A DNA stretch of 64,000 nucleotides. Origin: Aquamicrobium zhengzhouense. Its GTDB lineage: Bacteria > Pseudomonadota > Alphaproteobacteria > Rhizobiales > Rhizobiaceae. The stretch is taken from contig NZ_JADGMQ010000005.1 of assembly GCF_016124105.1 (NCBI RefSeq), forward strand, positions 1-64,000, written 5' to 3'. A program made the translations under genes and the position numbers. Shown one piece after another: positions 5,622 to 24,070 of this stretch (its first letter is position 1; each line of letters starts with the position of its first letter). A model generated the notes under the pieces. That model saw nothing but the letters and a program-made list of their open reading frames with translations, was not told where the DNA came from and made no database searches.

Positions 5622-5652
5622 TGTTGATTTGCACTGAGAGCTGACCCGGCAT
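5622..5652 (+). repeat. IS21 left terminal inverted repeat
   Basis: A 31-base terminal repeat matching the right end (8085-8115) in inverted orientation at 29 of 31 positions (differences at positions 13 and 19). It begins TGTTGATTTG and ends GACCCGGCAT. Confidence 0.9.
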
Positions 5653-5733
5653 TACGGGAAATTATCACTGAGATTTGACCCATGTTTCAATCATCCCTCG
5701 CGAGGTTTCAGCGGGGGCTCTGGAGTGATCGAC

Positions 5734-7260
5734 ATGGCGTTACTGAGCGTAATCCGGCGCTGGCATTTTCGAGAGCATCTATCAATCCGGGAGATTTGCC
5801 GCAGGACCGGCCTATCCCGGAATACCATCCGCAAATATCTGCGCCTTAACGACGTAGAGCCGAAGTTCAAGGTCCCGGAGCGGCCGAGCAGGCTTGATCC
5901 GTTCGCTGATCGGCTGTCGGCCTGGCTGAAGACGGAGTCCCAAAAGGGCCGCAAGCAAAAGCGCACCTTGAAGCAACTCCATGCCGATCTGGTAAGCCTC
6001 GGCTACGACGGTTCTTATTGCCGTGTTGCAGCCTTCGCGCGGGAATGGAAGGCAGACCGGCAGAGAGAGTTACAGACGACAGGACGCGGGACATTCGTGC
6101 CTCTGGCTTTCGAGCCCGGAGAAGCCTTCCAGTTCGACTGGTCGGAGGACTGGGCGATCATCGGCAATGAGCGCACCAAGCTGCAGGTGGCGCATACGAA
6201 GCTTAGCTACAGCCGGGCCTTTATCGTCCGTGCCTATCTCCTCCAGACCCATGAGATGCTGTTCGACGCCCACAATCATGCCTTCCGCGTGTTTGGCGGC
6301 ATTCCTGGCCGTGGCATCTACGACAACATGCGCACGGCAATCGACAAGGTGGGCCGTGGCAAGGAGCGCGACGTCAACGTCCGCTTCATGGCGATGGCCA
6401 GCCACTACCTCTTCGAGCCCGAATTTTGCAATCCCGCGTCCGGCTGGGAGAAGGGCCAAGTCGAGAAGAACGTTCAGGATGCACGTCATCGGTTCTTTCA
6501 ACCTGTTCCGCGCTTTCCATCCCTTGAGGCCCTGAACGACTGGCTTGAGCTTCGATGCAAGGCCTTCTGGGCAAAGACCCCACACGGCCAGATGCGCGGC
6601 ACCATCGCCGACATATGGGCTGAGGAAGCGCCAACTCTGATGCCAGTTTCTCGGCCATTCGACGGCTTCGTCGAATATACGAAGCGGGTCACTCCGACCT
6701 GCCTCGTCCATCTGGAGCGCAATCGCTACAGCGTGCCGGCCTCTTTCGCCAATCGACCAGTGAGCCTGCGGGTCTATCCGGATCGTATCGTGGTCGCTGC
6801 GGAGGGCCAGATCGTCTGTGAGCATCGCCGCGTCATCGACCGCTCCCACGATCGGCCGGGCCAGACGATCTACGACTGGCGGCACTATCTGGCGGTCGTG
6901 CAGCGTAAGCCCGGCGCTCTACGCAATGGTGCTCCGTTCATTGAGCTGCCGGATGCATTCAAGAGCTTGCAGCAATATCTCCTGAAGAAGCCAGGCGGAG
7001 ACCGCGAGATGGTCGATATCCTGGCCCTTGTTGTCCAGCACGATGAACAGGCCGTGCTGTCGGCCGTGGACATGGCGCTGAAGTCCGGCGTTCCGACCAA
7101 GACCCACGTGCTGAACCTGCTGCATCGCCTCGTCGACGGCAAATCCTTCACACCGCCCATCATCGACGCGCCACAGGCCCTGACGCTCACCAACGAGCCC
7201 AAGGCCAATGTCGAACGCTACGATGCCCTGAGAAAGACGGAGGTTCGCCATGCGTCATAA
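5734..7260 (+). CDS. istA: IS21 transposase IstA
   Basis: DDE transposase of 508 residues that cuts and joins the IS ends together with IstB. The N-terminal helix-turn-helix is [18 protein letters not shown] (about 18-35). The DDE core shows the first Asp in FQFDWSED, the second in YDNMRTAID and the Glu in [10 protein letters not shown], all intact. The ATG at 5734 follows GGAG by eight bases; an in-frame GTG lies at 5725. It overlaps istB by 11 bases, typical of the coupled IS21 genes. Confidence 0.95.
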
Positions 7261-8062
7261 TCCGGCAAGCGGTGCTATCGTCATCATGTTAAGGCAGTTG
7301 AAGATGCATGGCATGGCCCACGCCGTAGGTGATCTGACCGAACAGGGATCGCCGGCGTTCGAGGCTGCCATCCCGATCCTGTCGCAGCTCCTCAAGGCGG
7401 AGACCGCGGAACGTGAAGTGCGATCGACGGCCTACCAGCTCAAGACGGCACGCTTTCCAGCCTACCGCGATCTGAACGGCTTCGACTTCACCAGCAGCGA
7501 GATCAACGAGGCGCTGGTCCGTCAGCTTCATCGCTGCGACTTCCTCGACGAGGCCAACAACATCGTCCTGATCGGAGGTCCCGGCACGGGAAAGACCCAT
7601 ATCGCCACGGCCATCGGTGTCCAGGCCATCGAACATCATCACAAGCGGGTTCGGTTCTTCTCGACCGTGGAATTGGTCAATGCTCTCGAGCAGGAGAAGT
7701 CCCAAGGTCGTCCAGGCCAGATCGCTAATCGCCTCGTCCATTCCGATCTCGTGATCCTCGACGAGTTGGGATACCTGCCGTTCAGTGCATCAGGTGGCGC
7801 ATTGCTCTTCCATCTGCTGAGCAAACTCTACGAGCGCACCAGCGTCATCATTACCACCAACCTGAGCTTCAGCGAATGGGCCAGCGTCTTCGGCGACCCT
7901 AAGATGACCACCGCGCTGCTGGACCGGCTCACGCATCATTGCCACATCCTCGAAACCGGAAACGACAGCTTCCGGTTCAAAAACAGCTCAGCGCATGAGC
8001 CCAAAACAACGAAGGAGAAACGCAGGAACTTGACCACCACAACCGACACGAACGATACATAA
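7250..8062 (+). CDS. istB: IS21 helper ATPase IstB
   Basis: AAA+ ATPase of 270 residues, related to DnaC, that chooses the target and activates IstA. It shows Walker [10 protein letters not shown] (about 105-113), Walker [13 protein letters not shown] (about 163-174) and the sensor region [10 protein letters not shown]. Length is usual for the family, and the C-terminal tail is basic and threonine-rich. It starts inside the 3' end of istA in another frame, implying coupled translation. Both IS genes look intact, so the element could still be active. Confidence 0.95.
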
Positions 8063-10928: not shown

Positions 10929-12011
10929 TCAGCGGCTCATGCCTGTCAGTTCCCGGCCCAGTGCGCTTGAGAGGTCTTCTGCGGAATCGTAGAGAAGCTG
11001 AAGTGCGTAGTGCGGATTGTGGACATGGATACCTCCATCCGCGCCGACGAATTTCCAGTTGTATGCGGCCTTCAGCAGCCGCGGGGTCCAGCTCGTATAC
11101 GCGACCGGAGCGCCATCCTTCTCGTCGGCACGACCGTCTGAATTGTGGTCGGCGAAGAAGTACGGATAGCGTCCGCCGTCGTATATCATCGGCGTCCCGA
11201 TGACCTCGCGGGCATAGTCCTGCACGAGACCGAATAAACGCTGCCGATTGGCGACAATGTCGGCGTGAATGCCCTTGCCGAGATCACCGCTGCCGTCGAA
11301 GCTTTGCCGCGAGATACGGATCGCCTTGGGATCGCCGGTTTCGTGGCAAGTGGTGCAGACCTCTTCCGCGACGGTGAGATTATGCGGCTCATGGCATGAG
11401 ACGCAGGTTGCCACGGGCCGCGCATGAAAGAAGCGCGGCTCGTATTCCTTGCCGGCGTAATGGTAGCCGAGCGCTCCGTCACCGCCGAGCAGCGTGGCCC
11501 CAGCGATGGCATAGTGCGGATTGACGAAGCCGAGCTCCGGATTGACCTCATCCTCTTGTGAGGCGCCGACCGACTTTTCAATCGTAGCGGTCGAAGCGCG
11601 ACCCTGATGACAGGTCATGCACGCGCCTTCGAAGCCGGTCACAGGGTGGGGCAAACCTGAAGGCAGCTGGATTTCAGTCAGACTCGGCAGCGCGGGATTA
11701 TGGCAGGTATCGCAATCAACGACGCCTCCGACGGGAACAGGCGTTTGAGGCAATCCCGGCTCACTGCCGTCAAACCCATAAAGCGAGCGGAAACCGGCAC
11801 CCGAGTGGCAGGTTGCGCAGACCGGCGGAATCTGGCCCGCGTCATTCCAATGAGCGAAGGATTCGGAATGCACGTTGGCATGTCCACTGCGCGCCCATTG
11901 CGTGATTTCTGCGATGTTCGGCATCCGCTCCGGGGTCTGGCTAATCGCCGAGGCAGCAGCGACAAACACCAGCGGCAGAGCTGTTAAAAATACAACATGT
12001 CGCATCGGCAT
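10929..12011 (-). CDS. pentaheme c-type cytochrome, periplasmic
   Basis: A protein of 360 residues with an N-terminal signal peptide (FLTALPLVFVAAASAISQ) and five CxxCH heme sites: CATCH, CDTCH, CMTCH, CVSCH and CTTCH (between about 68 and 220). The remaining C-terminal domain has no heme motif and includes YDGGRYPYFFADHNSDG and SWTPRLLKAAYNWKF. It resembles multiheme cytochrome c electron carriers or reductases of the doubled-CxxCH type; the substrate cannot be told. GGGGA precedes the start by six bases. It is divergent from nqrA across 144 bp, suggesting a shared control region and a link to Nqr electron flow. Confidence 0.88.
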   Translation of the reverse strand: MPMRHVVFLTALPLVFVAAASAISQTPERMPNIAEITQWARSGHANVHSESFAHWNDAGQIPPVCATCHSGAGFRSLYGFDGSEPGLPQTPVPVGGVVDCDTCHNPALPSLTEIQLPSGLPHPVTGFEGACMTCHQGRASTATIEKSVGASQEDEVNPELGFVNPHYAIAGATLLGGDGALGYHYAGKEYEPRFFHARPVATCVSCHEPHNLTVAEEVCTTCHETGDPKAIRISRQSFDGSGDLGKGIHADIVANRQRLFGLVQDYAREVIGTPMIYDGGRYPYFFADHNSDGRADEKDGAPVAYTSWTPRLLKAAYNWKFVGADGGIHVHNPHYALQLLYDSAEDLSSALGRELTGMSR

Positions 12012-12155
12012 CGCTGGTCCCCGCTTGGCTTGCCCGGTGTGATGGTCTTTAGTAGATAGCGCATTGTCAAGCCGATCGGCCAGCCTTTCGGCCGCTCTTT
12101 CGGGTTCAGGGGGAGTTTCAGTCTGAGACTGCTAGATAGAGGTCTGGAGGTACTT
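12012..12155. promoter_or_regulatory. divergent control region, cytochrome c and nqr operon
   Basis: 144 bp separate the two divergent starts, so both promoters must lie here or in the gene ends. It contains CGGCC/GGCCG dyads around 12075-12095 and GGAGG just before the nqrA GTG. I cannot pick a convincing -35/-10 pair or a known regulator site. Confidence 0.5.
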
Positions 12156-13397
12156 GTGCCCACGCCTCGGCCTTGGCCGCAGGCGGTGGAGACGGTGATC
12201 ACCACCGAAGCGGGACTGAACCTCGACCCACTTATCGACATCCGCATGGAGGCGCTGGTCCAGCCGGGCGACACCGTTGCGCTTGGAAGGCCTGTCCTGA
12301 AAGACCGCAGACGGCCGGAATTGCTCGTCACCGCCCCAATGGGGGGGCGCGTGGTGCAACTTGAGCTTGGCGCAGGACGGCGGCAGGCCAGTCTGCTGAT
12401 CCAGCATGACGAGAAGGTACGACCGCACCAGTTCGATGTCCGCGATGCTCGCCGGGAATGCGAGCGAGGAAGTGGTGGCCCCGCCCTTCGCGACCTGCTT
12501 CAAGCCTCCGGCATGTGGATGCGATTTCGCTCTCGCCCGTTCGGGCGGGTGCCAGCGGGGTACGCGGTTCCTGCCTTGATCATGGTGATGGCGATCGATA
12601 CCAAGCCGCTTGCGCCGGACCCCTGTCTTGCGCTTAAGGGCGAGACGTTGGATCATCTCAAGCTTGGCCTGCAGGCGCTTGCGACCTTGTTCGACGGACC
12701 GATCCGGTTCTGCCAAGACGACGGTCCGGCCATTGTCGAGGAGAGTGATCGGATCAGGATCGCGCGCGCCGGCCCCCTGCATCCTGCCGGGCTCGCGGGC
12801 TCGTTCCTCCGCCGGGAGTTTCGATCCGGACAGAACCTGAATATCTGGGAGATTTCGGCAGAAGACGTAGTCGGCATTGGGCATCTGCTTTCCGAAGGTT
12901 TCTTGCCTGCGACACGCCTAGTCTCGGTTGCGGGACCGGGATTGCGTGAGACGCGGCTCGTTCGTTGCCAGCCCGGCGCCGACCTTCGCGAATTGTGTCA
13001 CGCTCATATGAAGCCCGGTCCCCATACCATCCTGTCAGGGTCCGCACTGGACGGTCGGGAAGCGCGTTGGCTCGGCTGGCGTGCCCGGCAGGTGACCGTG
13101 CTCGAACGGCGGGACACCAAGCCGCAACCGCATTGGCTGGAGAGCGCCTTGCGACGGGCTTCGCGACCGGAGCCGGTGATAGCCACATCTGCGGTGGAGC
13201 ATGCGCTCGGCGGTGCGATGCCAGGCATGGCGCTTTTGCGGGCGCTCGCAATCGGGGACGACGAAACCGCAGCAGAACTGGGCGCGCTGTCGCTGCTGGA
13301 GGAGGATCTGGCTCTTGTTGATTATGTCACCGCCGCTTCTCCGCGGTTCGCTGATCTTCTTCGTGCATGCCTCGACAGGATCGAGGCGATGACATGA
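12156..13397 (+). CDS. nqrA: Na+-translocating NADH:quinone reductase subunit A
   Basis: NqrA is the peripheral cytoplasmic subunit of the sodium-pumping NADH:quinone oxidoreductase. This copy has 413 residues, somewhat shorter than the usual about 445. Family features include the N-terminal barrel-like segment VQPGDTVALGRPVLKD and TAPMGGRVVQLELGAGRRQ, and a middle region resembling NqrA/RnfC (FLRREFRSGQNLNIWEIS). Start is GTG at 12156 with GGAGG six bases upstream. It is the first gene of nqrABCDEF and its stop overlaps nqrB (ATGA). A long antisense frame exists but is a shadow. Confidence 0.9.
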   Translation: MPTPRPWPQAVETVITTEAGLNLDPLIDIRMEALVQPGDTVALGRPVLKDRRRPELLVTAPMGGRVVQLELGAGRRQASLLIQHDEKVRPHQFDVRDARRECERGSGGPALRDLLQASGMWMRFRSRPFGRVPAGYAVPALIMVMAIDTKPLAPDPCLALKGETLDHLKLGLQALATLFDGPIRFCQDDGPAIVEESDRIRIARAGPLHPAGLAGSFLRREFRSGQNLNIWEISAEDVVGIGHLLSEGFLPATRLVSVAGPGLRETRLVRCQPGADLRELCHAHMKPGPHTILSGSALDGREARWLGWRARQVTVLERRDTKPQPHWLESALRRASRPEPVIATSAVEHALGGAMPGMALLRALAIGDDETAAELGALSLLEEDLALVDYVTAASPRFADLLRACLDRIEAMT

Positions 13398-14158
13398 TCC
13401 GTGGCATCTGGAACCGCGAAACGGTGGCAATGGTCTGGGTCGCGGCGGCCTTGCCGCTTGCCGTCACCTGGCTGCTGGCCGAGGGAAGCGCAGGGGCAAT
13501 CAGGCTCCTCTTCGTGCTCATCGTTGGCGGAGTCTGCCAGGCGATGTTCACGGTCATTCGCGCACAGCGGCCGAGCCTCGCAGGGCTGGTGTCCGCGCTC
13601 CTGATCGCGATGCTTGCCCCGCAGGTCGGGCCGCTGCAATTCGCGCTCGGTGTCGCGTTCGGTTTCGTGTTCGGAGAACTTGTCTTCGGCGGCTGGGGAC
13701 GGAGCGTTCTCAGCCCGGCAGTCGTCGCCATCATGTTCCTTGGGTTTGCCTTTCCCGCCGCTGCATGGCCGCACCTTCCCGTTCAGATCGAATGGGCCGT
13801 TTTTCCTGCTGTGGTCCTGCTGCTCGCCTTCGGCGTTCTGCCATGGCGAGCTTTGGCCGGCGCGGTGTTGGTGCTCGTCATTGCCGGAGGATTCGCGCTG
13901 CCCCCGTTTGGAAGCGCGGTCGCGGTCGTTCTCGTCTTCATCGTCTGCGACCCTGCCATCTGTGCCACTTCACCTCTGGGACGCTGGCTTGCGGGTGCTC
14001 TTTTCGGGCTGCTCTTTGCCCTGTTTGGATCTGTCTGGCAGGCATCGGCTGTGCAGATGGCGGTGTGCGCAGCTTTGCTGGTTTCGCTGTCGATCCCCCT
14101 TCTCGATGAATTGGCGATCGCTGTTTGGCGTTTAAGCGGGAGGTTCCGCCATGGGTGA
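13394..14158 (+). CDS. nqrB: Nqr subunit B, short form
   Basis: NqrB is the membrane subunit that holds a covalently bound FMN and riboflavin and forms the sodium path. This protein has only 254 residues, against about 400 in well-studied NqrB, and seems to lack the N-terminal helices. Hydrophobic segments run throughout, and the flavin-attachment region is visible as FIVCDPAICATSPLGRWL, with a Thr in the expected place. It starts at the ATG overlapping the nqrA stop, and its end overlaps nqrC by eight bases. The genes on both sides are in frame, so the shortness is unlikely to come from a frameshift. Confidence 0.85.
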   Translation: MIRGIWNRETVAMVWVAAALPLAVTWLLAEGSAGAIRLLFVLIVGGVCQAMFTVIRAQRPSLAGLVSALLIAMLAPQVGPLQFALGVAFGFVFGELVFGGWGRSVLSPAVVAIMFLGFAFPAAAWPHLPVQIEWAVFPAVVLLLAFGVLPWRALAGAVLVLVIAGGFALPPFGSAVAVVLVFIVCDPAICATSPLGRWLAGALFGLLFALFGSVWQASAVQMAVCAALLVSLSIPLLDELAIAVWRLSGRFRHG

Positions 14159-14954
14159 CTGGAACCCGATCAGGCTGTGGCGCAGTATTCTGGCGCTGCC
14201 AAACGAGAGCCGCACAAAGACGATCGCCGTCGCCTTCCTGGTCTCGATCATCTGTGCCGCGATGGTGACCGGAGCGACGGTTATCCTCAGGCCGATTCAG
14301 GCGCAGAATCGCGCGATGGAGCAACAGGCAAGGCTTGAGACGCTGCTCGCGGAAATACCCGGACTTAGCGAAATTCTCGCAAACTCCGAGGGCTCAGCAC
14401 TCTCGACCGTTGTGGTTGATCTGCGGCGCGCAGAAGCCTCGACGGAGGTGACGCCCGCGACGCTCGAAACAGCGATGGCGGATACCGCGAACTGGACAGA
14501 GCTTTCGCCGCAGGAGGACATCGCTGGCCTCGGCAGCCGGGCCGATCTCAAGCAGATCTACCTTCTGCGGGGGCCGGACGATGGCGTGAAACTCGCAATC
14601 CTGCCCATCAGCGGTACAGGTTACGGCGGCCCGATCGAAGCGATGATCGCCATAGGCGATAACATGACGACCGTGTCTGCACTGGCGATCATGTCCCATT
14701 CGGAAACGCCTGGCCTGGGCGCCCGCATCGATGAACCCGCATGGCGTCAGCAATTCGTCGGCAAACCGATTGCCGACGAAACGGGAACGCCACGCCTTTC
14801 CGTCGCGCGCGGGCGGGCCACGACAGAGTTCGAGGTGGACGCCATCACGGGTGCGACACGGACCAACAATGCGATCACCAGAATGCTCCAGTTCTGGCTG
14901 GGTCCGCGGGGCTACGGTCCTACCCTCGACGCGATAAGGCGGGGGGATTTCTGA
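14151..14954 (+). CDS. nqrC: Nqr subunit C
   Basis: NqrC carries a covalently bound FMN on the periplasmic side and passes electrons between NqrD/E and NqrB. The 267-residue protein has one N-terminal membrane anchor (TIAVAFLVSIICAAMVTGAT, about 24-43), the FMN-binding domain with SETPGLGARIDEP, and the flavinylation motif as DAITGATRT (about 235-243), whose Thr is the ApbE target. Length is normal. Starts inside the end of nqrB, and its stop overlaps nqrD (TGATG). Confidence 0.93.
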   Translation: MGDWNPIRLWRSILALPNESRTKTIAVAFLVSIICAAMVTGATVILRPIQAQNRAMEQQARLETLLAEIPGLSEILANSEGSALSTVVVDLRRAEASTEVTPATLETAMADTANWTELSPQEDIAGLGSRADLKQIYLLRGPDDGVKLAILPISGTGYGGPIEAMIAIGDNMTTVSALAIMSHSETPGLGARIDEPAWRQQFVGKPIADETGTPRLSVARGRATTEFEVDAITGATRTNNAITRMLQFWLGPRGYGPTLDAIRRGDF

Positions 14955-15607
14955 TGAAGCTCTGGACTACCCTCACCGAACCCATCCTGCGCCAGAACCC
15001 GGTGACGCTGCAGATCCTCGGCATCTGCTCGGCGCTGGCGGTTACCACCACCCTTGCGGCGGCGATCACCATGTCCCTTTGCCTCACGGCGGTGCTGGTC
15101 GCAGCCTCAGGCATCATCAGCACGATACGCAAGCATCTTCCGTCATCGATCCGGCTGATCGTGCAGATCATCATCGTGGCCTCGCTGGTGATCGTCGTGG
15201 ACCAGATCCTGCAGGCCTTCTTCTTCGAGATGAGCCAGCGGCTATCGGTCTATGTCAGCCTCATCGCCACCAACTGCGTCGTGCTCGGTCGCACCGAATC
15301 TTTCGCCCTCCACAACAAGCCCCTGTCGTCGATGACCGACGCGCTCGGCAACGGGCTGGGCTATTCCCTCATCCTGATCATTATCGGCAGCGTACGGGAA
15401 CTGTTCGGCCATGGGACCCTGCTGGGCTACAGCGTCCTTCCGACGGTTGAACAAGGCGGCTGGTTCGAGCCTCTGCCTCTCATGCTTCTGGCACCCAGCG
15501 CCTTCTTCCTGCTCGGCGGTCTCGTCTGGCTCATCCGCAGCCTGATGCCCAAGCAGGTCGAAACCCCTGAACATAAGCTTGTTCCTGCAGAGGAAGTGCC
15601 GGGATGA
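14954..15607 (+). CDS. nqrD: Nqr subunit D
   Basis: Integral membrane subunit of 217 residues with about six helices; NqrD and NqrE together bind an iron centre within the membrane. The cysteines expected for this are present: LGICSALAV near residue 22 and ATNCVVLGR near residue 104. Other family marks are LSSMTDALGNGLGYS and GSVRELFG. The C-terminal tail is longer and charged. It overlaps nqrC at its start and nqrE at its end, consistent with coupled translation. Confidence 0.94.
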   Translation: MKLWTTLTEPILRQNPVTLQILGICSALAVTTTLAAAITMSLCLTAVLVAASGIISTIRKHLPSSIRLIVQIIIVASLVIVVDQILQAFFFEMSQRLSVYVSLIATNCVVLGRTESFALHNKPLSSMTDALGNGLGYSLILIIIGSVRELFGHGTLLGYSVLPTVEQGGWFEPLPLMLLAPSAFFLLGGLVWLIRSLMPKQVETPEHKLVPAEEVPG

Positions 15608-16215
15608 GCGACCTCGGTTCCCTCTTCATTCGCTCGGCCTTTGTCGAGAACCTGCCGCTGACGCAGTTTCTCGGCCTTTGCACATTCCTTGCGCTGTCGC
15701 GCCGACCCGGCACCGCAATCGGCCTTGGATTGGCAGTCATTGCGGTGATGGGCGTGACCGTGCCGCTCAACCACCTGATCTTCCAGTATGTGCTGGCGCC
15801 CGGTGCATGGGCCTGGGCGGGCCTGCCGGAAATCGACTTGAGCTATCTGCGGCTTCTCACCTTCATCGGCGTGATCGCCGCTGCCGTCCAGTTGGTCGAA
15901 ATGATCCTCGACCGCAGCTTCCCCGCGCTGTTTGCCACCTTCGGAGTGTTCCTTTCGCTGCTGGCAGTCCACTGCGCCATTCTCGGTGGCAGCCTGTTCA
16001 TGGCTGAGCGGAACTACAATCTGGTGGAAAGTACGGTTCTCGGCCTCGGCGGCGGAACGGGCTTCGCGATCGCGGTCGTCATGTTGTCAGCGATCCGGCG
16101 CCGTCTGGCCTATGCCGACCTTCCGGATGGGCTGCAGGGTCTCGGCATCGCGTTCATCCTCACAGGCATGCTGTCGCTTGGATTTTCCTCCTTCGCGCAG
16201 ATGACGCTGCCATGA
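15604..16215 (+). CDS. nqrE: Nqr subunit E
   Basis: Integral membrane subunit of 203 residues, the partner of NqrD. It begins with the typical LFIRSAFVENLPLTQFLGLCTFLALS, with the conserved Cys near residue 26, and has the second Cys in LAVHCAILGGSLFMAER near residue 120. VESTVLGLGGGTGFAIAV and a C-terminal GIAFILTGMLSLGF complete the profile. Start overlaps nqrD by four bases and stop overlaps nqrF by four (ATGA). Confidence 0.95.
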   Translation: MSDLGSLFIRSAFVENLPLTQFLGLCTFLALSRRPGTAIGLGLAVIAVMGVTVPLNHLIFQYVLAPGAWAWAGLPEIDLSYLRLLTFIGVIAAAVQLVEMILDRSFPALFATFGVFLSLLAVHCAILGGSLFMAERNYNLVESTVLGLGGGTGFAIAVVMLSAIRRRLAYADLPDGLQGLGIAFILTGMLSLGFSSFAQMTLP

Positions 16216-17432
16216 TCGAGGTTCTGCTCGGAAGCGGCTTCATCGTCGCATTGATCCTGGGGCTTGCTCTGGCATTGCTGGCAGCACGAGCCCGCTTGAT
16301 CCCGGACACAGCGCTGCGCGTACGCGTGAACGATGTCCAGACGATCGAGGCCAGGCGTGGCGCAAAACTTCTCGAGGTTCTGCACGGCGCCAATATTCCG
16401 ATCCCCGCAGCTTGCGGAGGCAACGGCACCTGCGGGCAATGCCGCGTGGTGGCGACAGGCGAGGGAGCGGGCGAGTTGCGTTCCACCGAGCTCGGGCTTC
16501 TTTCCGCACGGGAGCGGCGAAACAATGTCAGGCTTGCCTGCCAGGTCGCGCTGCGCGGTTCCGTCGATGTCACGGTGCCCCCGGAAATCATGTCAGCAGA
16601 GACGTTCACGGCCACGGTCGTCAGCAACCGGATGCTCGCGCCGCTCATCCGTGAACTGGTCCTGAAGCTCCCCGAAGAAAAGGAACTGGCATTCAGGGCC
16701 GGCGGCTTCATGCTGCTGACGGCACCTCCCTACGACCTCGATTTCTCCAGCCTCGAGATAGACGACGCGCATGAGGAAACCTGGCGTATCTCCGGATGGT
16801 CGCAGCTTCGCTCGCAGGTGACGGAGCGCACCGCTCGCGCCTATTCGATCGCCACCCGTCCGGCTGACCGCAATTTGCTGGTGCACAATATCAGGCTGGC
16901 CGTCCCCCCGGCGGGCCGCGAAGAGGACATCCCTCCGGGCATCGTCTCATCCTATCTTTTCGGATTGAAGCCTGGCAGCGAGCTCGACGTATCCGGACCG
17001 TTCGGTGAATTTCACGTCCAGCCCACAGAAGAGGAGATGGTGTTCATCGGCGGCGGTGTCGGCATGGCACCGTTGCGCGCCATGATCCACGAGCAGCTGG
17101 CGCTCGGGACGAAGCGGCGCATCTCCTATTTCTATGGCGCACGCTCGCGCGCCGACCTCTTCTACGCCGAGGAATTTGAGGCGCTCGCATCCGAGCACGG
17201 GAATTTCAGCTGGACCGTCGCGCTCTCGGACCCTGCTCCGGGCGAGCGTTGGCAGGGTGAGACCGGGTTCATCCACGAAGTTCTCGCCAGGACGATGCGC
17301 AACCACCCGAGGCCGGAGGATTGCGAATACTATCTCTGCGGCCCTCCCGTGATGATTTCCGCGGTGCTGTCCACGCTGGACGATCTCGGCGTGGAGCCCC
17401 ACTCCATCTTCAACGACGATTTCGGGATTTGA
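16212..17432 (+). CDS. nqrF: Nqr subunit F, NADH dehydrogenase with 2Fe-2S and FAD
   Basis: NqrF takes electrons from NADH. The 406 residues match the usual length: one N-terminal helix (about 1-25), a ferredoxin domain with CGGNGTCGQC and a fourth Cys in LACQVAL, then an FAD/NADH module with RAYSIATRP for FAD and GGGVGMAPLRAMI for nucleotide binding, ending FNDDFGI. All cluster cysteines are present. The start overlaps nqrE, and apbE follows four bases after the stop. Confidence 0.96.
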   Translation: MIEVLLGSGFIVALILGLALALLAARARLIPDTALRVRVNDVQTIEARRGAKLLEVLHGANIPIPAACGGNGTCGQCRVVATGEGAGELRSTELGLLSARERRNNVRLACQVALRGSVDVTVPPEIMSAETFTATVVSNRMLAPLIRELVLKLPEEKELAFRAGGFMLLTAPPYDLDFSSLEIDDAHEETWRISGWSQLRSQVTERTARAYSIATRPADRNLLVHNIRLAVPPAGREEDIPPGIVSSYLFGLKPGSELDVSGPFGEFHVQPTEEEMVFIGGGVGMAPLRAMIHEQLALGTKRRISYFYGARSRADLFYAEEFEALASEHGNFSWTVALSDPAPGERWQGETGFIHEVLARTMRNHPRPEDCEYYLCGPPVMISAVLSTLDDLGVEPHSIFNDDFGI

Positions 17433-17436
17433 AGAC

Positions 17437-18420
17437 ATGAGCCATCACCGTCCCACTCGACGTCAGATCCTGGCCGGCGCAACAGCCGCATCGGCACTGC
17501 TTGCCGCGCCGACAATTGCAAGGTCGGCTCCGCCTGTGATCAGGATTGGCGGCCCCGCCTTCGGCACGCGCTGGAACCTCACCATCCAGCCGCACGCCGA
17601 CACCGAACGCCTCGCTGCGGTCGTCTCCGACATCGTCGGCCACGTGGATCGACTGATGTCACCATGGCGCACCGACAGCGTGATCAGCGATTTCAACCGC
17701 CGCCAGGACACAAGCTGGGTCAAGGTCGGCAACGAGATCGCGAGCGTCATGGACAGTTGCCTAACCGTGCATCATCAAAGCGGCGGCGCGTTTGATGCAG
17801 CCGTCGGCCCTCTGGTTGCGCGCTACGGTTTCGGACCGATCAGCGCTTCTCCAGCCCCCGCCGAAGCAGTCTTCGACGTTTTAGGGGACGCGCTTGCAAA
17901 GTCACACCCTGCGCTTACTGCCGATCTGTGCGGTGTCGCCAAGGGCTATGCCTTGGACCAGATCATCAGCGCCATCTCCGAAGAAGGTGAGAGGAACTTT
18001 GTCCTAGATCTCGGAGGGGAGATATCGGCGCGAGGGCTCCATCCCGAGGGTCGCCACTGGCAGGTTGCCCTCGAGGACCCGCGTCCAGGTCGCGATGGAG
18101 CGGCGGAAATTGTCGGGCTCGCAGGCCTTTCCATCGCAACGTCAGGCGACAAGCAGAACTCCTACGCCGGCGGCCAACGACGTTTCAGCCACATCATCGA
18201 TCCGCGAAAGGCTGCGCCTGTCGATGCTGCCACAGCATCGGTGTCCGTCATTGCGGAAAGCGGGATGCTGGCCGACGCCTGGGCGACCGCGCTCATGGCC
18301 GCCGGTGCCGCCGGTCCGGCGATCGCCGAACGCAACAACATCGACGCGTTGTTCCTGCTACGAGAGGGCGAAGGGTTGCGCCGGATCGCTGTCGGACGTT
18401 TCGACGATCATCTGGCTTGA
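17437..18420 (+). CDS. apbE: FAD:protein FMN transferase ApbE
   Basis: ApbE attaches FMN to threonines of NqrB and NqrC in the periplasm. The 327-residue protein starts with a twin-arginine signal (RRQILAGATAASALLAAP). Family motifs are GTRWNLTI, GGAFDAAVGPL, CGVAKGYALDQI, VLDLGGEISARG and HIIDPRKAAPVD. It lies four bases after nqrF, in the right place to mature the complex, and is followed closely by nqrM. The complete set of maturation genes argues that the Nqr complex is functional. Confidence 0.94.
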   Translation: MSHHRPTRRQILAGATAASALLAAPTIARSAPPVIRIGGPAFGTRWNLTIQPHADTERLAAVVSDIVGHVDRLMSPWRTDSVISDFNRRQDTSWVKVGNEIASVMDSCLTVHHQSGGAFDAAVGPLVARYGFGPISASPAPAEAVFDVLGDALAKSHPALTADLCGVAKGYALDQIISAISEEGERNFVLDLGGEISARGLHPEGRHWQVALEDPRPGRDGAAEIVGLAGLSIATSGDKQNSYAGGQRRFSHIIDPRKAAPVDAATASVSVIAESGMLADAWATALMAAGAAGPAIAERNNIDALFLLREGEGLRRIAVGRFDDHLA

Positions 18421-18429
18421 GGCCGTGCA

Positions 18430-18633
18430 ATGGAATTGATCCTCGCTTTGGCCCTCATGCTACTCGTCACCGTCGCCCTTGCTCTCGGCGTCATGCTACG
18501 CGGAGAGCCGCTCAGGAACTCCTGCAGTGGCTTGTCCTGCCTGCCAGATGACGCGCGCTGCGCCGGTTGCCCGAGACGCGTGTCTTCCGAAACTGCGCAC
18601 CCGGATTCGGTGCCAAGACATGCTAATGGATAA
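18430..18633 (+). CDS. nqrM: NqrM, Nqr maturation protein
   Basis: NqrM is a small membrane protein required to deliver iron to the NqrD/NqrE site. The 67 residues give one N-terminal helix (LILALALMLLVTVALALGV) and the four-cysteine pattern CSGLSC with CAGC about seven residues later. It lies nine bases after apbE. With it the cluster holds all known factors for assembling Na+-NQR. Confidence 0.9.
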   Translation: MELILALALMLLVTVALALGVMLRGEPLRNSCSGLSCLPDDARCAGCPRRVSSETAHPDSVPRHANG

Positions 18634-18703
18634 CGGCTTAAAGTTGCGAGCAAATCCGAAGGATCGAGAAATGCTTTCCATGGAGCAAGGAGGATAAGGC
18701 GCT

Positions 18704-19093
18704 ATGAGCATGGTAATCAGCAGGGTCATGCGCACCGATTTCCTTGCCCTGGACGCGGCAATGACCATCCGCCATGCGGCTGGGCTGCTGCATGCGAAAG
18801 GGCAGGAAGCCGCCCCGGTCTTGAACGAGGCGGGACTGCTGATCGGTATCCTGACGCAAAAGGACTGTTTCCGGCCTGCCGTTCAGGCAAGCTACTATCA
18901 GCAGTGGCGGGGAACGGTAGGCGAGCAGATGAGCAATCCGGTCAAGACGATCGAAGCCGACGGCGACATCGCCAGCGCCGCCAGGATGTTCCTTGCGGAG
19001 CCGCACAGGGCGTTCCCCGTGCTGCAGAACGGGCAGTTGGTAGGCATGCTACAACGCCAAGATGTCCTGGGAAGGCTCCTCGAACTCGGATAA
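18704..19093 (+). CDS. CBS-domain pair protein
   Basis: A cytoplasmic 129-residue protein made only of two CBS domains (about 5-60 and 70-127). The pair usually binds adenine nucleotides or NAD and acts as an energy sensor. AAGGAGG precedes the ATG. It lies 70 bases after nqrM on the same strand, so it may belong to the nqr transcript and tune the complex to adenylate or NAD state; that role is inferred from position only. Confidence 0.85.
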   Translation: MSMVISRVMRTDFLALDAAMTIRHAAGLLHAKGQEAAPVLNEAGLLIGILTQKDCFRPAVQASYYQQWRGTVGEQMSNPVKTIEADGDIASAARMFLAEPHRAFPVLQNGQLVGMLQRQDVLGRLLELG

Positions 19094-19338: not shown

Positions 19339-21084
19339 TTAGGCGTCCTCATCCGCCTCTTCGACCGCCCGACGCCTCGCAGCCAGTCCTAGGGTTCCGG
19401 AAGACATCGGCTTTGGCTTGCCCGCGTGCCAATGCTCGATGGTCCTGTACCAGGGCTGCCATACCTTAAACTCCGGCTTCGCCGGATAGGTCTCTCCCGG
19501 AAGCCTTGGCAGGGGGCGCGCGATCCGACCGCCATTCTTCTTCCACTCCTCGTCGCAGGCTTTGAAAAGCAGGTCGCACCATTCCTTCATAGCAATGGCC
19601 TTGAGCGCGAGGCGCTGCGAGTGGTCGTAGACGAGGCGCGTGATCTCGGCTCGTGTCGGAGCAGCGGATACTCTAGGCGCATCAATAGAGCCGTCGGCGT
19701 GGTCGAGGACCGCCGAGATCGCGTCGCCGCGGACGGCGTTCTCTCCGCAGATCGTCGCGAATGTGCGACGGAGGTCATGCACGGAAAAATGCGGGATGCC
19801 GGCGAGAAGGTCCTTGAGGGGGCCGCGCACCTTCTTGTCCTTGTCGTCCTTCGTCTTCTCTTCCTGTCGGTCCCCGTCTTCCTCCTCCTTTACGGCGATC
19901 GACAAGTCCGCAGCTCGGCCGCGCAGACGCTCGATCAAAAGCCGCGGCGTCGAACGGGACAGCGGCGCGTCGCCCTGCCCTGCCTGGCGCTGTGCCGGGA
20001 AGAGGTATCGTGACTTAGGGTCAGCCGAGATGGCGATGCGCTCCAGCAGGAGAGAGGCCATGGGGGGGATCGGGATCGCGTGGAAGCGCCGACCCTTCAT
20101 ATCTTCCACCGGAAACGTTACTACGCTCCAGCCCGGCTCGGGCGCACCGTCCCATGGCAGGATCGAATCCTTGGTGACCCTGAGGCCTGCCGTCGCGCGC
20201 TGCGCCGTAAGGGCCAGCCACCACAGGGAGCAGACTACGACGTCGGACGTCTCTCTCTGTATCAGTCTACCCGGCGCCACGCGAAAAGAGTCCGCGACCC
20301 GAAGGACCCGCGCCAGATCGGCGAGTTCAGGGAACCGTGTCTTCGGGACGGGGATGGTTTCCTCGCGCTTCTTAGTATCAATCCACCAGCGGTCAACCTT
20401 CTCGAGGCCCGACCGTCCGGCGTGATAGCCACGCGCCCAAGACATGGCGGCTGAGCTATAGGCTACGAACTGGCGCGATGCCGTCTTGCGTCCGTAGTCG
20501 TCGTAAAGCTCATCCCGAACCGCCTCGAAATCCGACCGCTGTAGCTCCATCAGGAGGCGACCGCCAAGGTGCTTGATGACGACGGAATCACTGAGGTATC
20601 TCCTCGCCTCCTCCGCGCTCTTCAGTGACGGCGGGCGGACGCCGCGAGTAGTCGTCCGAGGCTTGGAAAGGTAGTCTTCGGGGTACTTCGTCGCGAGGTC
20701 TTCCCACTTCCATTTGCCGGACGCATGCGCGTCCTGTCTGGCAACGGCTGAGACCGCCTCGCCCGACGTCTTCCCGGCCCGCCTCTGCCTGACGAAGCGC
20801 GCAGCCTCGTCGCCGACGCCGCCCCGCATCAGGTCGCGGGTCTCGACCGCTAGCTGCCGCGCCGCCGTCGGAGACCGGATCTCACCTAGTGTTCCAAGCG
20901 AACGGGTCTTGCCACGGAATTTTAGGATCCAAGTTACCGTTGAAGCCTGCACCCTGATCGACAGACCTGGCTCCCTGTCGTCGGCAAAAATTAACGGGTC
21001 TCTGCTTGTGTACTTTCTAGAAACGGCAGCCTCCTCAGCCTCTTTGAGATGTTCCTTGGACAGGACGGCGCGGACGGTCGGCAT
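19339..21084 (-). CDS. tyrosine recombinase/integrase of a mobile island
   Basis: A site-specific recombinase of 581 residues, longer than the about 400 of common P4-type integrases. An N-terminal DUF4102-like arm-binding region contains LSIRVQASTVTWILKFRGK and LGTLGEIRSPTAARQ. The catalytic domain shows Arg in LALTAQRATAGLR, the H-x-x-R box VHDLRRTFAT, His in VLDHADG and the Tyr in LVYDHSQRLAL. A charged insertion (KEEEDGDRQEEKTKDDKDKK) sits between the boxes. It lies beside the tRNA-Arg fragment at 21259-21314, which is its likely target. Confidence 0.92.
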   Translation of the reverse strand: MPTVRAVLSKEHLKEAEEAAVSRKYTSRDPLIFADDREPGLSIRVQASTVTWILKFRGKTRSLGTLGEIRSPTAARQLAVETRDLMRGGVGDEAARFVRQRRAGKTSGEAVSAVARQDAHASGKWKWEDLATKYPEDYLSKPRTTTRGVRPPSLKSAEEARRYLSDSVVIKHLGGRLLMELQRSDFEAVRDELYDDYGRKTASRQFVAYSSAAMSWARGYHAGRSGLEKVDRWWIDTKKREETIPVPKTRFPELADLARVLRVADSFRVAPGRLIQRETSDVVVCSLWWLALTAQRATAGLRVTKDSILPWDGAPEPGWSVVTFPVEDMKGRRFHAIPIPPMASLLLERIAISADPKSRYLFPAQRQAGQGDAPLSRSTPRLLIERLRGRAADLSIAVKEEEDGDRQEEKTKDDKDKKVRGPLKDLLAGIPHFSVHDLRRTFATICGENAVRGDAISAVLDHADGSIDAPRVSAAPTRAEITRLVYDHSQRLALKAIAMKEWCDLLFKACDEEWKKNGGRIARPLPRLPGETYPAKPEFKVWQPWYRTIEHWHAGKPKPMSSGTLGLAARRRAVEEADEDA

Positions 21085-21099: not shown

Positions 21100-21180
21100 T
21101 TATCGGAGAACCTATACCACGTTTATACCAACCTTGAATGTGGATTTTCAGGGGAGATGGCACGTGGCCAAAAATAACAC
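21100..21180. promoter_or_regulatory. possible integrase arm sites
   Basis: The space between the integrase start and the tRNA fragment has a direct repeat, CTATACCA and TTTATACCA, at about 21111-21130, just upstream of the integrase. Short direct repeats here are typical of integrase arm-binding sites, but this is inference. Confidence 0.3.
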
Positions 21181-21258: not shown

Positions 21259-21314
21259 AGTCTCAGAGACTACGAATCTGGGGGTCAGAGGTTCGAATCC
21301 TTTCGGGCGCGCCA
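21259..21314 (+). other. att site: 3' half of tRNA-Arg(ACG)
   Basis: From 21270 the sequence reads as the 3' part of a tRNA: anticodon loop CTACGAA (anticodon ACG), TCTGG stem strand, T arm AGAGG-TTCGAAT-CCTTT, acceptor strand CGGGCGC, discriminator G and encoded CCA (21312-21314). The 5' half (GCGCCCG, D arm) is absent; the 5' anticodon stem strand is only partly matched. In its place lies the dyad AGTCTC-A-GAGACT (21259-21271), plausible as an integrase core site. This is the pattern left when an element inserts at the anticodon loop of tRNA-Arg, so the island lies to the left and the host replicon to the right. Confidence 0.8.
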
Positions 21315-21426
21315 TTCAACTTATTGAAACCTTCCTTTCCCATCAATCTACGCCCGTTAGCATCAAGGTTTGCTTCGCCATTAGTTGGCGCTGGTTTGTT
21401 TTTTGATAATCCCCGGTCCGCGACCG

Positions 21427-21825
21427 TCAATCGGCGGGAACGAGAGCGATTACTTTGATCTCGAAATCAAAGCCGGACAGCCAGTTCACGCCGATGGCCG
21501 TCCAGTTGGGAAACGGTGCGTTGACGAAGTTCCGGTTCCTTACCGCCTTGATCGTGTCGAACTGGGATACCGGGTCGGTGTGGAATGTTGTGACATCGAT
21601 TATGTCATCGAAACCGCATCCCGCAGCTTTGAGCGTTGCCGCAAGATTGTCGAAGGCGAGTTGCACCTGACGCCGGAGGTCAGGTTCCGGCGTTCCATCG
21701 TCCAGGCTGCCCACCTGCCCTGACACAAAGACCAGATCGCCGGACCTTATCGCCGCCGAATAATTGTGCATCTCATAGAGGTTGTTCCGGTTGGCCGGAA
21801 AAATCGCTTCGCGCTTGGTCATCAT
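21427..21825 (-). CDS. RidA/YjgF/Rid-family protein
   Basis: Member of the Rid family, whose best-known member hydrolyses reactive enamines and imines; others act in catabolic operons. The 132 residues include NYSAAIRSGDLVFVSGQVG, the typical QVQLAFDNLAATLKAAGCGFDDIIDVTTF and a C-terminal FEIKVIALV. The canonical Arg of RidA near the C-terminus is not evident, so it may be a diverged subfamily. Start at 21825 has AAGGAT before ATG. It lies 73 bases after the amidohydrolase gene on the same strand and is probably co-transcribed. Confidence 0.85.
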   Translation of the reverse strand: MMTKREAIFPANRNNLYEMHNYSAAIRSGDLVFVSGQVGSLDDGTPEPDLRRQVQLAFDNLAATLKAAGCGFDDIIDVTTFHTDPVSQFDTIKAVRNRNFVNAPFPNWTAIGVNWLSGFDFEIKVIALVPAD

Positions 21826-21898
21826 CTTATCCTTGTCATGTTGAAGGAGATAGAAGGACGAAAGTGGCGCGCCTCTGCGGCCGCCACCTCGGTGAAAT

Positions 21899-23686
21899 TT
21901 AGTGGGCTCCGTAGTAGCCGCCATAATGTTTGACGGGCGACCAGGCGGGGAGAATGTCGGGCAAGGGCGGCCTCAGGGCCTTATATTCTTCTGCCCCGAA
22001 CACCACCCGGCCATCCATCACTGTCAAAACTGAGGAGATGGATCTGATCTGATCTTCCGGAACCGTGAAATAGTCCCTGTCCAGCAGGGCGAAATCAGCC
22101 AGATTACCGGGTGCAACTCTCCCCATCTCAGACTCCGCATTCATGAACCACGCCGCGCCAGCCGTGAACAGGTGCAGGGCCTCGGCGCGGGAAAGACGAT
22201 TGTCCTCGGCAAGGATGTCGGAGCCGGACACCGATTTCCCTGACACGACCCAGGGGTTGAAGGTTGCGGCTCGATACGCAACGGTGGTCATGGCCAAGGG
22301 AACACCACTGTCGACGAGTTGGCGCAGCCGCGGCGTTCGCAACGCGACCTCGCGGCCGTGCGTTTCTATGAAGCCGTCGCCGTGCAGTGCCATTTTCGTG
22401 TCCAGAGCGATTCCGCCGCCAAGCTCTTTGACCCTGGAGATGTTTTTCGGGCTGATTGTTTCGGCGTGCTCGATGCTCCACCGCAGGCCATCAAGCGGGG
22501 CGGTTTGGTTCAGATCTTCCAATGCGTCGAGGAAAGGCGAGATGTTTTCGTCGTAACTGATGTGCATGCGGAACGGGATTCGCCGTTCAACCAACTTGCG
22601 CACATTTTGCTCAACGTGCTGTCGCATTAAACCGGGATCGATGGTGACGGGCGGACGATCAAAGTTCTCGTGATCGTGGACATCGATCTGCAGCACTTCT
22701 CCGGCACCACGATACACATGGCCATGCGCCAATGTCGGGTGCAGTTTATGCCCGGGGCTGATCGGTGCGATCTTCGTAATCGCTTCGATCTGGGCCTCCA
22801 CCATGTTGATTGGACTGCCATCGCCAAACTGCATGTCGACGAACGGCATGCGAACGTTGAGGCGGTTATCCCGGGCCAGCGCCGCCACGTTGGCCTGAGC
22901 CGTAGGGTAGCCTCGGTTTCCGGCGTCAATAACTGAGGTAACGCCGAACCGGTTCAGGCCGTGAATGGCATGGACCAGCGCGCTTACCTGTTCCTCGGAC
23001 GAAGGCTGCGGGACCATGGCCTCCATGGCGATGAAGGTGAATGTGTAGCCCTCGACGACGCCTGTAGGGTTTCCCTGCGCATCGCGCTCGAACTCCGTTC
23101 CCGGCAGGTCTGGAAACTGCACGGTCCCCACGCCGAGTGCTTCCATGGCCTGTTCGTTCAGGAAGGCGCGGTTGTAGGCGTACTGAACGATCAAAGGACG
23201 ATCTGGGACGGCCTCTCGCAGCTCGTCCAGGGTTGGAAAGCGGTTCTCCTCAAACTGAAATGGCGACCAGCCGCCAATCGCCTTCACCCATTGTCCCTCA
23301 GGCGTCCGCTCTGCCTGCTCCCGCAGCATGTCTAGTGCCTGGCGCAGCGTCGGGACCCCGTCCCACCTCAAATTATAGGTGTAGCTGCTCTCATTGAGCA
23401 CATGGGTGTGCGCGTCACTGATGCCGGGGATCAGCCTGCGACGGCCAGCATCGATCATCTGGGTGCCGGAATTTTTAAGACCAAGAACGTCGCCATCGGA
23501 ACCAACGAAATAGATACGGCCGTCCTTCACCGCGAGAGCGGACGCTTCGGGCTGCGCAAGATTGCCGGTGAAAATCTGGGCATTGAAAACGATGAGATCG
23601 GCCCCGGGAGTTTCCAGCAGCGACCCTGCGTGGGCGGAGGAAACGCAAAGAGCGGCAAGGGAGGCAATCAGGAGCTTGCGGGGCAT
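21899..23686 (-). CDS. secreted amidohydrolase, YtcJ-like
   Basis: A metal-dependent amidohydrolase of 595 residues with a Sec signal peptide (LLIASLAALCVSSAHAGS). The family pattern is VFNAQIFTGN, then the metal-binding HxH in GISDAHTHVLNESS, a long TIM barrel with SIEHAETISPKN, and the C-terminal strand domain with NLADFALLDRDYF. Relatives hydrolyse N-formyl or N-acyl compounds; the substrate is unknown. The ATG at 23686 sits six bases after AAGGAGG. It is divergent from the exported hydrolase at 24071 across a palindrome-bearing spacer. Confidence 0.88.
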   Translation of the reverse strand: MPRKLLIASLAALCVSSAHAGSLLETPGADLIVFNAQIFTGNLAQPEASALAVKDGRIYFVGSDGDVLGLKNSGTQMIDAGRRRLIPGISDAHTHVLNESSYTYNLRWDGVPTLRQALDMLREQAERTPEGQWVKAIGGWSPFQFEENRFPTLDELREAVPDRPLIVQYAYNRAFLNEQAMEALGVGTVQFPDLPGTEFERDAQGNPTGVVEGYTFTFIAMEAMVPQPSSEEQVSALVHAIHGLNRFGVTSVIDAGNRGYPTAQANVAALARDNRLNVRMPFVDMQFGDGSPINMVEAQIEAITKIAPISPGHKLHPTLAHGHVYRGAGEVLQIDVHDHENFDRPPVTIDPGLMRQHVEQNVRKLVERRIPFRMHISYDENISPFLDALEDLNQTAPLDGLRWSIEHAETISPKNISRVKELGGGIALDTKMALHGDGFIETHGREVALRTPRLRQLVDSGVPLAMTTVAYRAATFNPWVVSGKSVSGSDILAEDNRLSRAEALHLFTAGAAWFMNAESEMGRVAPGNLADFALLDRDYFTVPEDQIRSISSVLTVMDGRVVFGAEEYKALRPPLPDILPAWSPVKHYGGYYGAH

Positions 23687-24070
23687 TTTCATCCTCCTTC
23701 GAGAAAACACGCGGCCAGATCATCCTTGTGACAAGGAGCCGCCGGTTGGGGTCCGCTTTCGCAGGGGGCCGCTGAAAGCCGGCGCATCTGCTTCGCGGAT
23801 GAATGACAAATCTAGCGGGTGAGGAGGTGTGGCGCGGCGCGGAAGCTGCTGCTTGCGTGCCGATCTTGCTGATTCAAACTCGCATGTGAAATGGGCGTCG
23901 CAGAGGTCATTAGACCGTCTGCGGCTATTGCCTCGCAAGATCGGCACCGTGACAGCAGCATTCGCGCCGCGCCCTTTTTCTCAACAGCTAGATTAGCCGC
24001 TTAATAAGCAGGCAAGCCTGTCCAGCGAGCAATGAGTGTGAGCTCGCGATGTCTTGTTGAGGATACTCCG
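23687..24070. promoter_or_regulatory. divergent intergenic region with palindromic element
   Basis: 384 bp between the divergent amidohydrolase and epoxide-hydrolase-like genes, without a credible gene. It must hold both promoters and contains the long imperfect palindrome at 23831-23973 with a small inner dyad (GGTC-ATTA-GACC flanked by CGCAGA and TCTGCG, about 23899-23923). Confidence 0.6.
23831..23973. repeat. long imperfect palindrome, copy 1
   Basis: Arms 23831-23869 and 23935-23973 match in inverted orientation at 32 of 39 positions, including perfect blocks GGCGCGGCGCG, GCTGCTG and GTGCCGATCTTGC. A 65-base centre separates them. It ends 97 bases before the ATG at 24071. A related element is at 37711-37890. 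Confidence 0.75.

Follow-up and report, generated by a model that had tools for sequence, protein, structure and literature searches.

A Na+-NQR-like module with a shortened NqrB beside a divergent pentaheme cytochrome in Aquamicrobium zhengzhouense: a candidate route for electron export from NADH

The first 64,000 nucleotides of contig NZ_JADGMQ010000005.1 of Aquamicrobium zhengzhouense (assembly GCF_016124105.1), hereafter the window, contain a gene module related to the Na+-translocating NADH:quinone oxidoreductase (Na+-NQR) and arranged back to back with a gene for a c-type cytochrome. The cytochrome, a pentaheme protein of 360 amino acids (aa), is encoded on the minus strand (10929..12011) and recognised by five CXXCH motifs, a signal-peptide-like N-terminus noticed by eye, Pfam matches and an AlphaFold model. 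A shared divergent control region of ~145 base pairs (bp) (12012..12155) separates it from a series of plus-strand genes, which begins with nqrA (12156..13397; 413 aa, with an uncertain start because the frame stays open further upstream) and continues with a shortened nqrB (13394..14158; 254 aa from a conserved start), nqrC (14151..14954), nqrD (14951..15607) and nqrE (15604..16215), the last two each predicted to provide half of a membrane 2Fe-2S site, and nqrF (16212..17432). These are followed by apbE (17437..18420), which encodes an FAD:protein FMN transferase (FAD, flavin adenine dinucleotide; FMN, flavin mononucleotide), by an nqrM-like gene for a Cys-rich small membrane protein of 67 aa (18430..18633) and, as last gene of the module, by a gene for a two-CBS-domain protein of 129 aa (18704..19093). 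nqrA, nqrD, nqrE, nqrF, apbE and the CBS gene are identified by curated models and Pfam, nqrC by a curated model and its flavinylation motif TGATRT, and the nqrM-like gene by similar open reading frames (ORFs) in relatives of the module, one of them annotated nqrM; the CBS gene is also conserved in these relatives. An Rfam scan of the window at the gathering threshold gave no match.

All six subunit genes are present in the order nqrABCDEF, as in Na+-NQR. When compared with the curated NCBI cut-offs, NqrD, NqrE and NqrF lie above them and NqrC slightly under one of its own (142.4 versus 144), and the cut-offs are failed by NqrA and, most of all, by NqrB (67 bits versus 349.9). The preliminary description of this DNA had announced a pentaheme cytochrome beside a full Na+-NQR locus. 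The divergent cytochrome, nqrA to nqrF, apbE, the nqrM-like gene and the CBS gene are indeed there, but the word full does not hold for NqrB.

The NqrB of the window has 254 aa, against ~400 in the canonical protein. Its whole open frame measures only 267 aa (first ATG at 13367), and open NqrB frames of at most 320 aa are found in 45 of the 77 relatives that we class as type I and in 11 of the 16 others. The missing N-terminus is thus not just a matter of start-codon choice, whole frames being too short to hold it. Four parts of canonical NqrB are missing, residues 1-43, 82-121, 216-259 and 310-317 (counted along the L019 frame), the third of which is the 44-residue flavinylation loop containing DGFSGAT, aligned with the flavinylated Thr236 of Vibrio cholerae NqrB. 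At Thr236, the alignment shows a gap for the window and for 93/93 short NqrB, and a T for 14/14 canonical ones; type II sequences entered it only with the part of each frame that matched, and for them it bears on the inner loop and not on the N-terminus. The NqrB alignment (A4) comprises 68 of the 77 loci and the window, the remaining loci being excluded by hand. In the window, NqrB therefore has neither the residue that would bind FMN covalently nor the N-terminal helices of the quinone site, which two such helices help to form according to the part of PMC12174285 seen. Riboflavin is contacted in NqrB by T162, N200, N203 and D346 (excerpts of PMC9325719 and PMC10643135); these positions read S, S, S and D in the window, N200 is a G in 11 of 13 type II sequences, and N200/N203 are altered in most of type II.

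The AlphaFold model of the short form has a predicted local distance difference test score (pLDDT) of 90.8 and ten helices, and in Foldseek it matches NqrB and RnfD structures with E-values (E) down to 1.5e-8. Judged from alignments and model, short NqrB appears to keep the scaffold of the subunit and to have lost its output side. A full Na+-NQR is ruled out by the NqrB alignments, in which the FMN-Thr loop and the N-terminus are absent, and a plain Rnf complex is equally ruled out, the 4Fe-4S proteins RnfB and RnfC being missing and NqrF and NqrA standing in their place. By its other subunits the module belongs to the Nqr lineage; by the NqrB features tested it is not a Na+-NQR.

The rest of the complex retains its cofactor motifs. 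NqrC carries the flavinylation motif, read as ITGATRT in the window, as do 75 of 76 type I sequences (the exception is cut by a contig end) and 16 of 17 others (the exception, in locus L201, reads AGAT), so that a covalent FMN is predicted in this subunit. NqrF has 2Fe-2S, FAD and NADH domains in the window, and its 2Fe-2S motif is conserved in 75/75 type I and 16/16 other sequences. The Cys pairs of NqrD (75/75 type I, 16/16 others) and NqrE (75/75 and 15/15) stand at the right spacing, this site being judged by motif spacing only and the window's own pairs by eye. As far as motifs tell, nothing is missing from the half of the Nqr electron path that leads outward.

The cytochrome matches the Pfam families Cytochrome_C7 and Cytochrom_C552. 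In its alignment (A5; 73 of 80 loci and the window, 74 rows, with the remaining loci excluded by hand), the five CXXCH motifs are invariant together with H44, H166, H196, H210 and H331, which suggests five bis-histidine hemes without an open catalytic site, and the protein is likely a carrier rather than a catalyst. Its nearest relatives are found in Pelagibacterium, Devosia and Microvirga. The AlphaFold model (m90afa0e0d239; pLDDT 85.7) gives weak Foldseek matches, to OcwA (E 0.03) and NrfA (E 0.12), to which the likeness is confined, and the best match of a PDB sequence search is no better than E = 0.019. An NrfA-type nitrite reductase was ruled out as the identity of the cytochrome on account of these weak sequence and fold matches.

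The association of this cytochrome with nqr extends well beyond A. zhengzhouense. A seven-row cytochrome alignment, used as a profile against genome contigs, retrieved 315 relatives; the 80 best of them were examined, a choice leaning to close relatives. Among these, the cytochrome gene and nqrA diverge in all 79 loci that can be read, with a gap of 96-475 bases (median 243); in the 80th, the contig stops 354 bases before the cytochrome gene and the neighbour cannot be read. All 80 cytochromes have five CXXCH motifs, 75 of the 80 loci extend as far as nqrF, and 62 have every gene of the set, up to apbE, nqrM and the CBS gene. The hosts are, by title, mostly Rhodobacterales and Hyphomicrobiales, with one Granulosicoccus assembly. 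The occurrence of the cytochrome beside nqr in other genomes, on which the preliminary description had made its proposal depend, is therefore decisively established, and the CBS protein, present in 72/80 loci, is borne out as part of the module; its role as a sensor of energy state is conjectural. In one otherwise intact module, that of Nitratireductor sp. OM-1, apbE is annotated as two genes (L007:7330-8306).

A less biased sample (295 genomes, 294 genera, one alphaproteobacterial family) gives the same picture. The cytochrome profile matches in 48 of these genomes, strongly in 45, a short NqrB occurs in 35, and both are found in 31. Short NqrB was here defined by a score above 90 bits against profile A4, and includes a fragment (G446), a broken copy (G301) and one cut by a contig end (G531). 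The cytochrome is present in 31/35 genomes with short NqrB and in 14/260 others (odds ratio 136, p = 8e-27 by a Fisher test that counts genomes as independent, with ancestry uncorrected). Where only another NqrB occurs (one by a weak match), the cytochrome is found in 2/40 genomes, on a different contig (p = 3e-14 for this comparison), and in G386 and G412, which hold both an ordinary and a short NqrB, it adjoins the short one. Of the 31 genomes with both, 30 have the cytochrome gene and nqrA in divergent orientation, and the remaining one has them co-directional in a broken copy (L177, of G301), a degraded module in which nqrA, nqrC, nqrF and the cytochrome gene, here on the nqrA strand, are split. 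In the host's own family, the cytochrome is found in 8/121 genomes (host counted), four times with nqr and four times with a ferric-reductase-type partner (see below), and it is co-directional with nqrA in one locus of this family (L237); in an even draw over the whole class, matches to the window cytochrome occur in 3/289 genomes.

As a control, 16 ordinary nqr stretches of the same class were inspected, and no ORF with three or more CXXCH motifs was found in them. There apbE is divergent from nqrA in 13/16; it is not found in two, and one contig ends before nqrA. In a tree of NqrD, NqrE and NqrF (47 chosen rows), the ordinary Nqr form one clade (100/100) with all included short-NqrB modules outside, so that the latter look like a lineage rather than the outcome of repeated decay. 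Given the co-occurrence and these controls, a bystander cytochrome is unlikely: the pairing of cytochrome and Nqr is real, and its layout is far beyond chance.

Both sides of the pair exchange partners. In the 295-genome sample, 46 cytochrome loci were found: 31 adjoin nqr, 11 adjoin a ferric-reductase-type membrane protein and 4 have neither. The ferric-reductase-type partners have Ferric_reduct, FAD_binding_8 and NAD_binding_1 domains (Pfam on five of the eleven, the rest being recognised by similarity). They are close and divergent in ten loci; the eleventh (L166), whose stop-to-stop frame overruns, was not so scored. In a tree of 50 chosen rows, the cytochromes linked to these proteins form, with one unlinked member, a well-supported group (100/99) placed among nqr-linked ones. 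The cytochrome and the ferric-reductase-type protein could perhaps constitute a second, two-gene electron-export pair; the cytochrome was seen beside such proteins in L152, L164, L166-L172, L174, L176, L235, L236, L238 and L239. In one unlinked locus (L173:6866-10549), a pentaheme homologue, a nine-CXXCH cytochrome with Cytochrome_cB and MtrC-like domain matches and a cytochrome b561 are all encoded in one direction.

Conversely, four short-NqrB modules have no pentaheme cytochrome (L200, L201, L202 and L203). In L201, the divergent slot holds the gene of a tetraheme cytochrome c3, past which lies an FAD_binding_2 gene that appears broken; in L202, it holds that of an EB_dh-type heme protein with one CXXCH. 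L203 is cut by a contig end. A more reduced relative (L197, G116:C102, 8864-14909) consists of a short NqrB gene, nqrCDEF, apbE and the CBS gene with no detectable nqrA, and a 198-aa protein with four CXXCH is encoded ~2 kilobases (kb) away. At a distance from its short-NqrB module, G300 encodes a six-CXXCH protein weakly similar to the pentaheme cytochrome (L204:4365-5795). Both partner exchanges can be understood if a membrane device draws electrons from cytosolic NAD(P)H and the cytochrome serves as their way out.

In an ordinary Na+-NQR, the electron, once it has crossed the membrane, is led back to quinone by the FMN and riboflavin of NqrB. With the FMN loop and the N-terminal quinone-site part lost from NqrB, this return branch to quinone would be cut. 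We therefore favour, with a probability of about 0.7, an electron-exporting branch of Nqr, in which electrons would pass from NADH through NqrF, NqrDE and the FMN of NqrC to the pentaheme cytochrome and not to quinone. NADH would be oxidised by NqrF with its FAD and 2Fe-2S centres, and the electron would cross the membrane via the NqrD/E 2Fe-2S cluster to the periplasmic FMN of NqrC, attached by ApbE. NqrC would then hand it to the soluble pentaheme cytochrome, which would carry it to a periplasmic acceptor that may vary between hosts. NqrA and the ten-helix core of NqrB would serve as scaffold and as dock for NqrC, perhaps also as an ion path. Of the idea of the preliminary description that sodium pumping is coupled to a periplasmic electron carrier or acceptor, the link from Nqr to a carrier is the best reading, with the correction that the cut NqrB makes this something other than an ordinary Na+-NQR with an extra cytochrome. 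The host also carries a Complex1_49kDa (NuoD-type) gene, so the module is probably not its only NADH dehydrogenase; a single NqrA match is found in the host.

Several observations weigh against electron export. The outward direction is itself something that we infer from the genes. The riboflavin residues are mostly kept in type I NqrB (N200 in 73/77, N203 in 62/77), so that a flavin may still bind NqrB and pass electrons onward. The cytochrome occurs without short NqrB in 14 of the 45 genomes that bear it strongly, with neither type of partner in 4 of the 46 loci, and the module of L200 stands in a 19.9-kb stretch that has no multiheme ORF, a SelO gene taking the place of the cytochrome gene. 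Nor did the search for an acceptor yield a common one: when flanking ORFs of at least 130 aa from the 80 loci were compared all against all, six clusters were present in at least six loci, none of which was recognised as a reductase. The largest of them (19 loci, median distance 3.3 kb) has a representative that looks out of frame. Finally, NosZ-like full-length matches occur in 10/35 short-NqrB genomes and 65/260 others (p = 0.68; matches of at least 400 bits were counted because the model cut-off was passed in only four of the 295 genomes), and NapA lies above its cut-off in 4/35 and 31/260, respectively (p = 1). NosZ and NapA do not track the module.

Shared regulation of the cytochrome and nqr genes is suggested by their divergent layout. 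A TTGACA motif reads toward the cytochrome gene in the control region of the window, and likewise in L038, L039, L040 and L105. No FNR-like box, the consensus of which we take to be TTGATN4ATCAA, was noticed in the window's control region. Among 79 control regions, the window being outside the count, such a box is found in 8 with at most one mismatch (0.8 expected) and in 20 with at most two (6.6 expected). Some copies of the module may accordingly be oxygen-regulated, the signal being weak.

Electrons could also run the other way, the cytochrome taking them from a periplasmic donor and NqrC, NqrDE and NqrF using an ion gradient to reduce NAD+. This would suit both the absence of a fixed reductase neighbour in the flanks of the 80 loci and the presence, among the hosts, of lineages known for sulfur or C1 oxidation. 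Rnf relatives are moreover described as reversible in the excerpt of PMC12174285. We nevertheless consider such a reverse run unlikely, for the other recurrent partner of the cytochrome is an NAD(P)H membrane protein of the ferric-reductase type. That family normally sends electrons outward, and the apparently broken FAD_binding_2 gene of L201, fumarate-reductase-like by eye, is also of an acceptor type.

It is likewise improbable that the complex remains an NADH:quinone reductase, in which short NqrB would use another route, with NqrC reducing riboflavin directly, and the cytochrome would be a separate neighbour that has no more than a promoter in common with it. The core of NqrB and, in most type I sequences, the riboflavin residues are kept, which is compatible with this explanation, as is the NqrB-like protein of two-subunit Nqr/Rnf-like systems, which also has no flavinylated Thr; in these systems, a non-covalent flavin may be within reach of the NqrC-type FMN (PMC11334425, in part). 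The N-terminal helices contributing to the quinone site (PMC12174285, in part) are however missing, and the co-occurrence is too tight for a bystander, with the cytochrome lying beside the short NqrB in G386 and G412. Decay of the module, NqrB being an eroded remnant in a functionless complex, can practically be dismissed: there is a single clearly broken copy (L177 of G301), whereas the same shortening is seen without stops in 77 type I, 13 type II and 3 other NqrB, and invariant NqrB residues at identities down to ~44% to the window point to selection.

Sodium pumping by the module may be retained. One of the flank clusters, labelled Na_H_Exchanger from Pfam on one representative, occurs in 10 loci (e.g. 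L107:11047-12210) and in nine of them directly follows the cytochrome gene at a median of 13 bases, a hint that Na+ may still matter. We tentatively put forward, as a conjecture less probable than not, that the module is half of an Nqr: a single-branch NADH:cytochrome c oxidoreductase that would still pump Na+, its NqrB holding neither covalent FMN nor quinone, its coupling then lying at the NqrD/E 2Fe-2S cluster, and exchangeable periplasmic cytochromes serving as its electron exits. How Na+ is pumped is disputed, a V. cholerae model placing the process in NqrB, triggered by FMN, and an Acetobacterium woodii Rnf model at the RnfA/E cluster (PMC12174285, in the part seen). The same part of this source describes a bound Na+ held in NqrB by backbone oxygens of A263, V275 and V332; by residue offset, A263 lies inside the missing loop and V275 just past it. 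Because the FMN loop of NqrB, and with it A263 by offset, is naturally lost here, whether or not this module pumps Na+ would help to tell the two models apart.

The preliminary description had further proposed a transferable module, and the module does look transferable. Five plasmid records hold a cytochrome homologue, and four of them, from Shinella, Paracoccus, Nitratireductor and Pseudooceanicola, have the same layout; in the fifth, from Defluviimonas (42.5% identity), no nqr lies within the 29 kb shown. The Granulosicoccus assembly is placed beside Nitratireductor in the tree of NqrD, NqrE and NqrF, and Mesorhizobium and a Rhizobiaceae assembly beside Paracoccus, a mixed placement that suggests transfer. 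In the window, a tyrosine-integrase-like protein of 581 aa is encoded on the minus strand (19339..21084; Pfam Phage_integrase and Arm-DNA-bind_3, single copy), as mobile-element context outside the electron pathway. It is followed on the plus strand by 50 bp that repeat the 3' end of tRNA-Arg(ACG) (21267..21316), a probable attachment site matching an intact tRNA gene on contig C13, 387 bases short of the contig end. An exact 22-mer is common to this C13 tail (L230, 387 bases) and to window positions 21113-21134, between integrase and attachment site, and could perhaps mark arm sites for the integrase, one at each end of the element. Integrase, tRNA copy and C13 tail are what an element inserted in tRNA-Arg would be expected to leave. 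The claim that the module lies on an island is thus partly supported, by the integrase-like gene beside the tRNA-Arg copy, only one end of the element having been located.

The surroundings are as follows. To the left of the module lie a metal P-type-ATPase-like C-terminal fragment recognised by eye (4954-5652) and then a transposase ORF (Mu-transpos_C_2) followed by an IstB-like ATPase ORF, the latter also by eye (5725-8062); judged by eye in part, these ORFs (4954-8062) seem to be remnants of mobile DNA. To the right of the attachment site, a catabolic cluster (21899-23710 and 24032-39115) comprises, by eye, ORFs of amidohydrolase, alpha/beta hydrolase, glutathione-transferase-like and short-chain dehydrogenase type, with a RidA-like protein (Ribonuc_L-PSP) at 21427-21924.

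If electron export is confirmed, Alphaproteobacteria would possess a new route by which NADH electrons reach the periplasm and bypass the quinone pool, on a module found on plasmids and beside an integrase. This module is hidden by current annotation, short NqrB being labelled as an Rnf subunit: in four plasmid records, it appears as 'RnfABCDGE type electron transport complex subunit D'. In the open full-text literature, most subscription papers being outside the search and a prior report therefore possible, neither an Nqr paired with a multiheme cytochrome nor an NqrB lacking the FMN loop in a six-subunit Nqr was found to be described. The evolution of nqr is treated in PMC4014512, in the seen part of which neither is mentioned.

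Compared with known systems, the module shares with Na+-NQR the gene order nqrA-F, NqrF, NqrD/E, the NqrC motifs, ApbE and NqrM, with NqrD, NqrE and NqrF above the curated cut-offs, and differs from it by an NqrB without the FMN-Thr loop and the N-terminal quinone-site part, by the added CBS gene and divergent pentaheme cytochrome, and by its place in a separate clade. RnfD of RnfABCDGE is, like short NqrB, without the N-terminal extension (Foldseek template modelling score 0.81 to A. woodii RnfD), but it keeps the flavinylation loop, and RnfB and RnfC stand where the module has NqrF and NqrA. Two-subunit Nqr/Rnf-like systems, for which one-way export from NAD(P)H is proposed in excerpts of PMC8238504 and PMC11334425, have an NqrB-like subunit without the flavinylated Thr, as in the module, and an NqrC-like FMN subunit. 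They differ in consisting of just two subunits, the NqrB-like one carrying a fused NAD domain, a fusion not found in the window, whereas the module has all six, including separate NqrF, NqrD and NqrE, and a multiheme cytochrome. The same excerpts also describe Rnf subunits with multiheme or multi-flavin domains. Finally, the Rnf of Methanosarcina acetivorans passes electrons to the extracytosolic multiheme cytochrome MmcA, encoded by an adjacent gene (PMC11024163, in part), and is thus, like the module, a complex of the Rnf/Nqr family with a multiheme cytochrome encoded beside it. Its donor is ferredoxin and its cytochrome a heptaheme relative of octaheme tetrathionate reductase, whereas the module combines an NADH-fed Nqr, a cut NqrB and a pentaheme cytochrome without such a PDB sequence match. 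With these differences, the module of A. zhengzhouense would work by analogy in the manner of the M. acetivorans Rnf-MmcA system.

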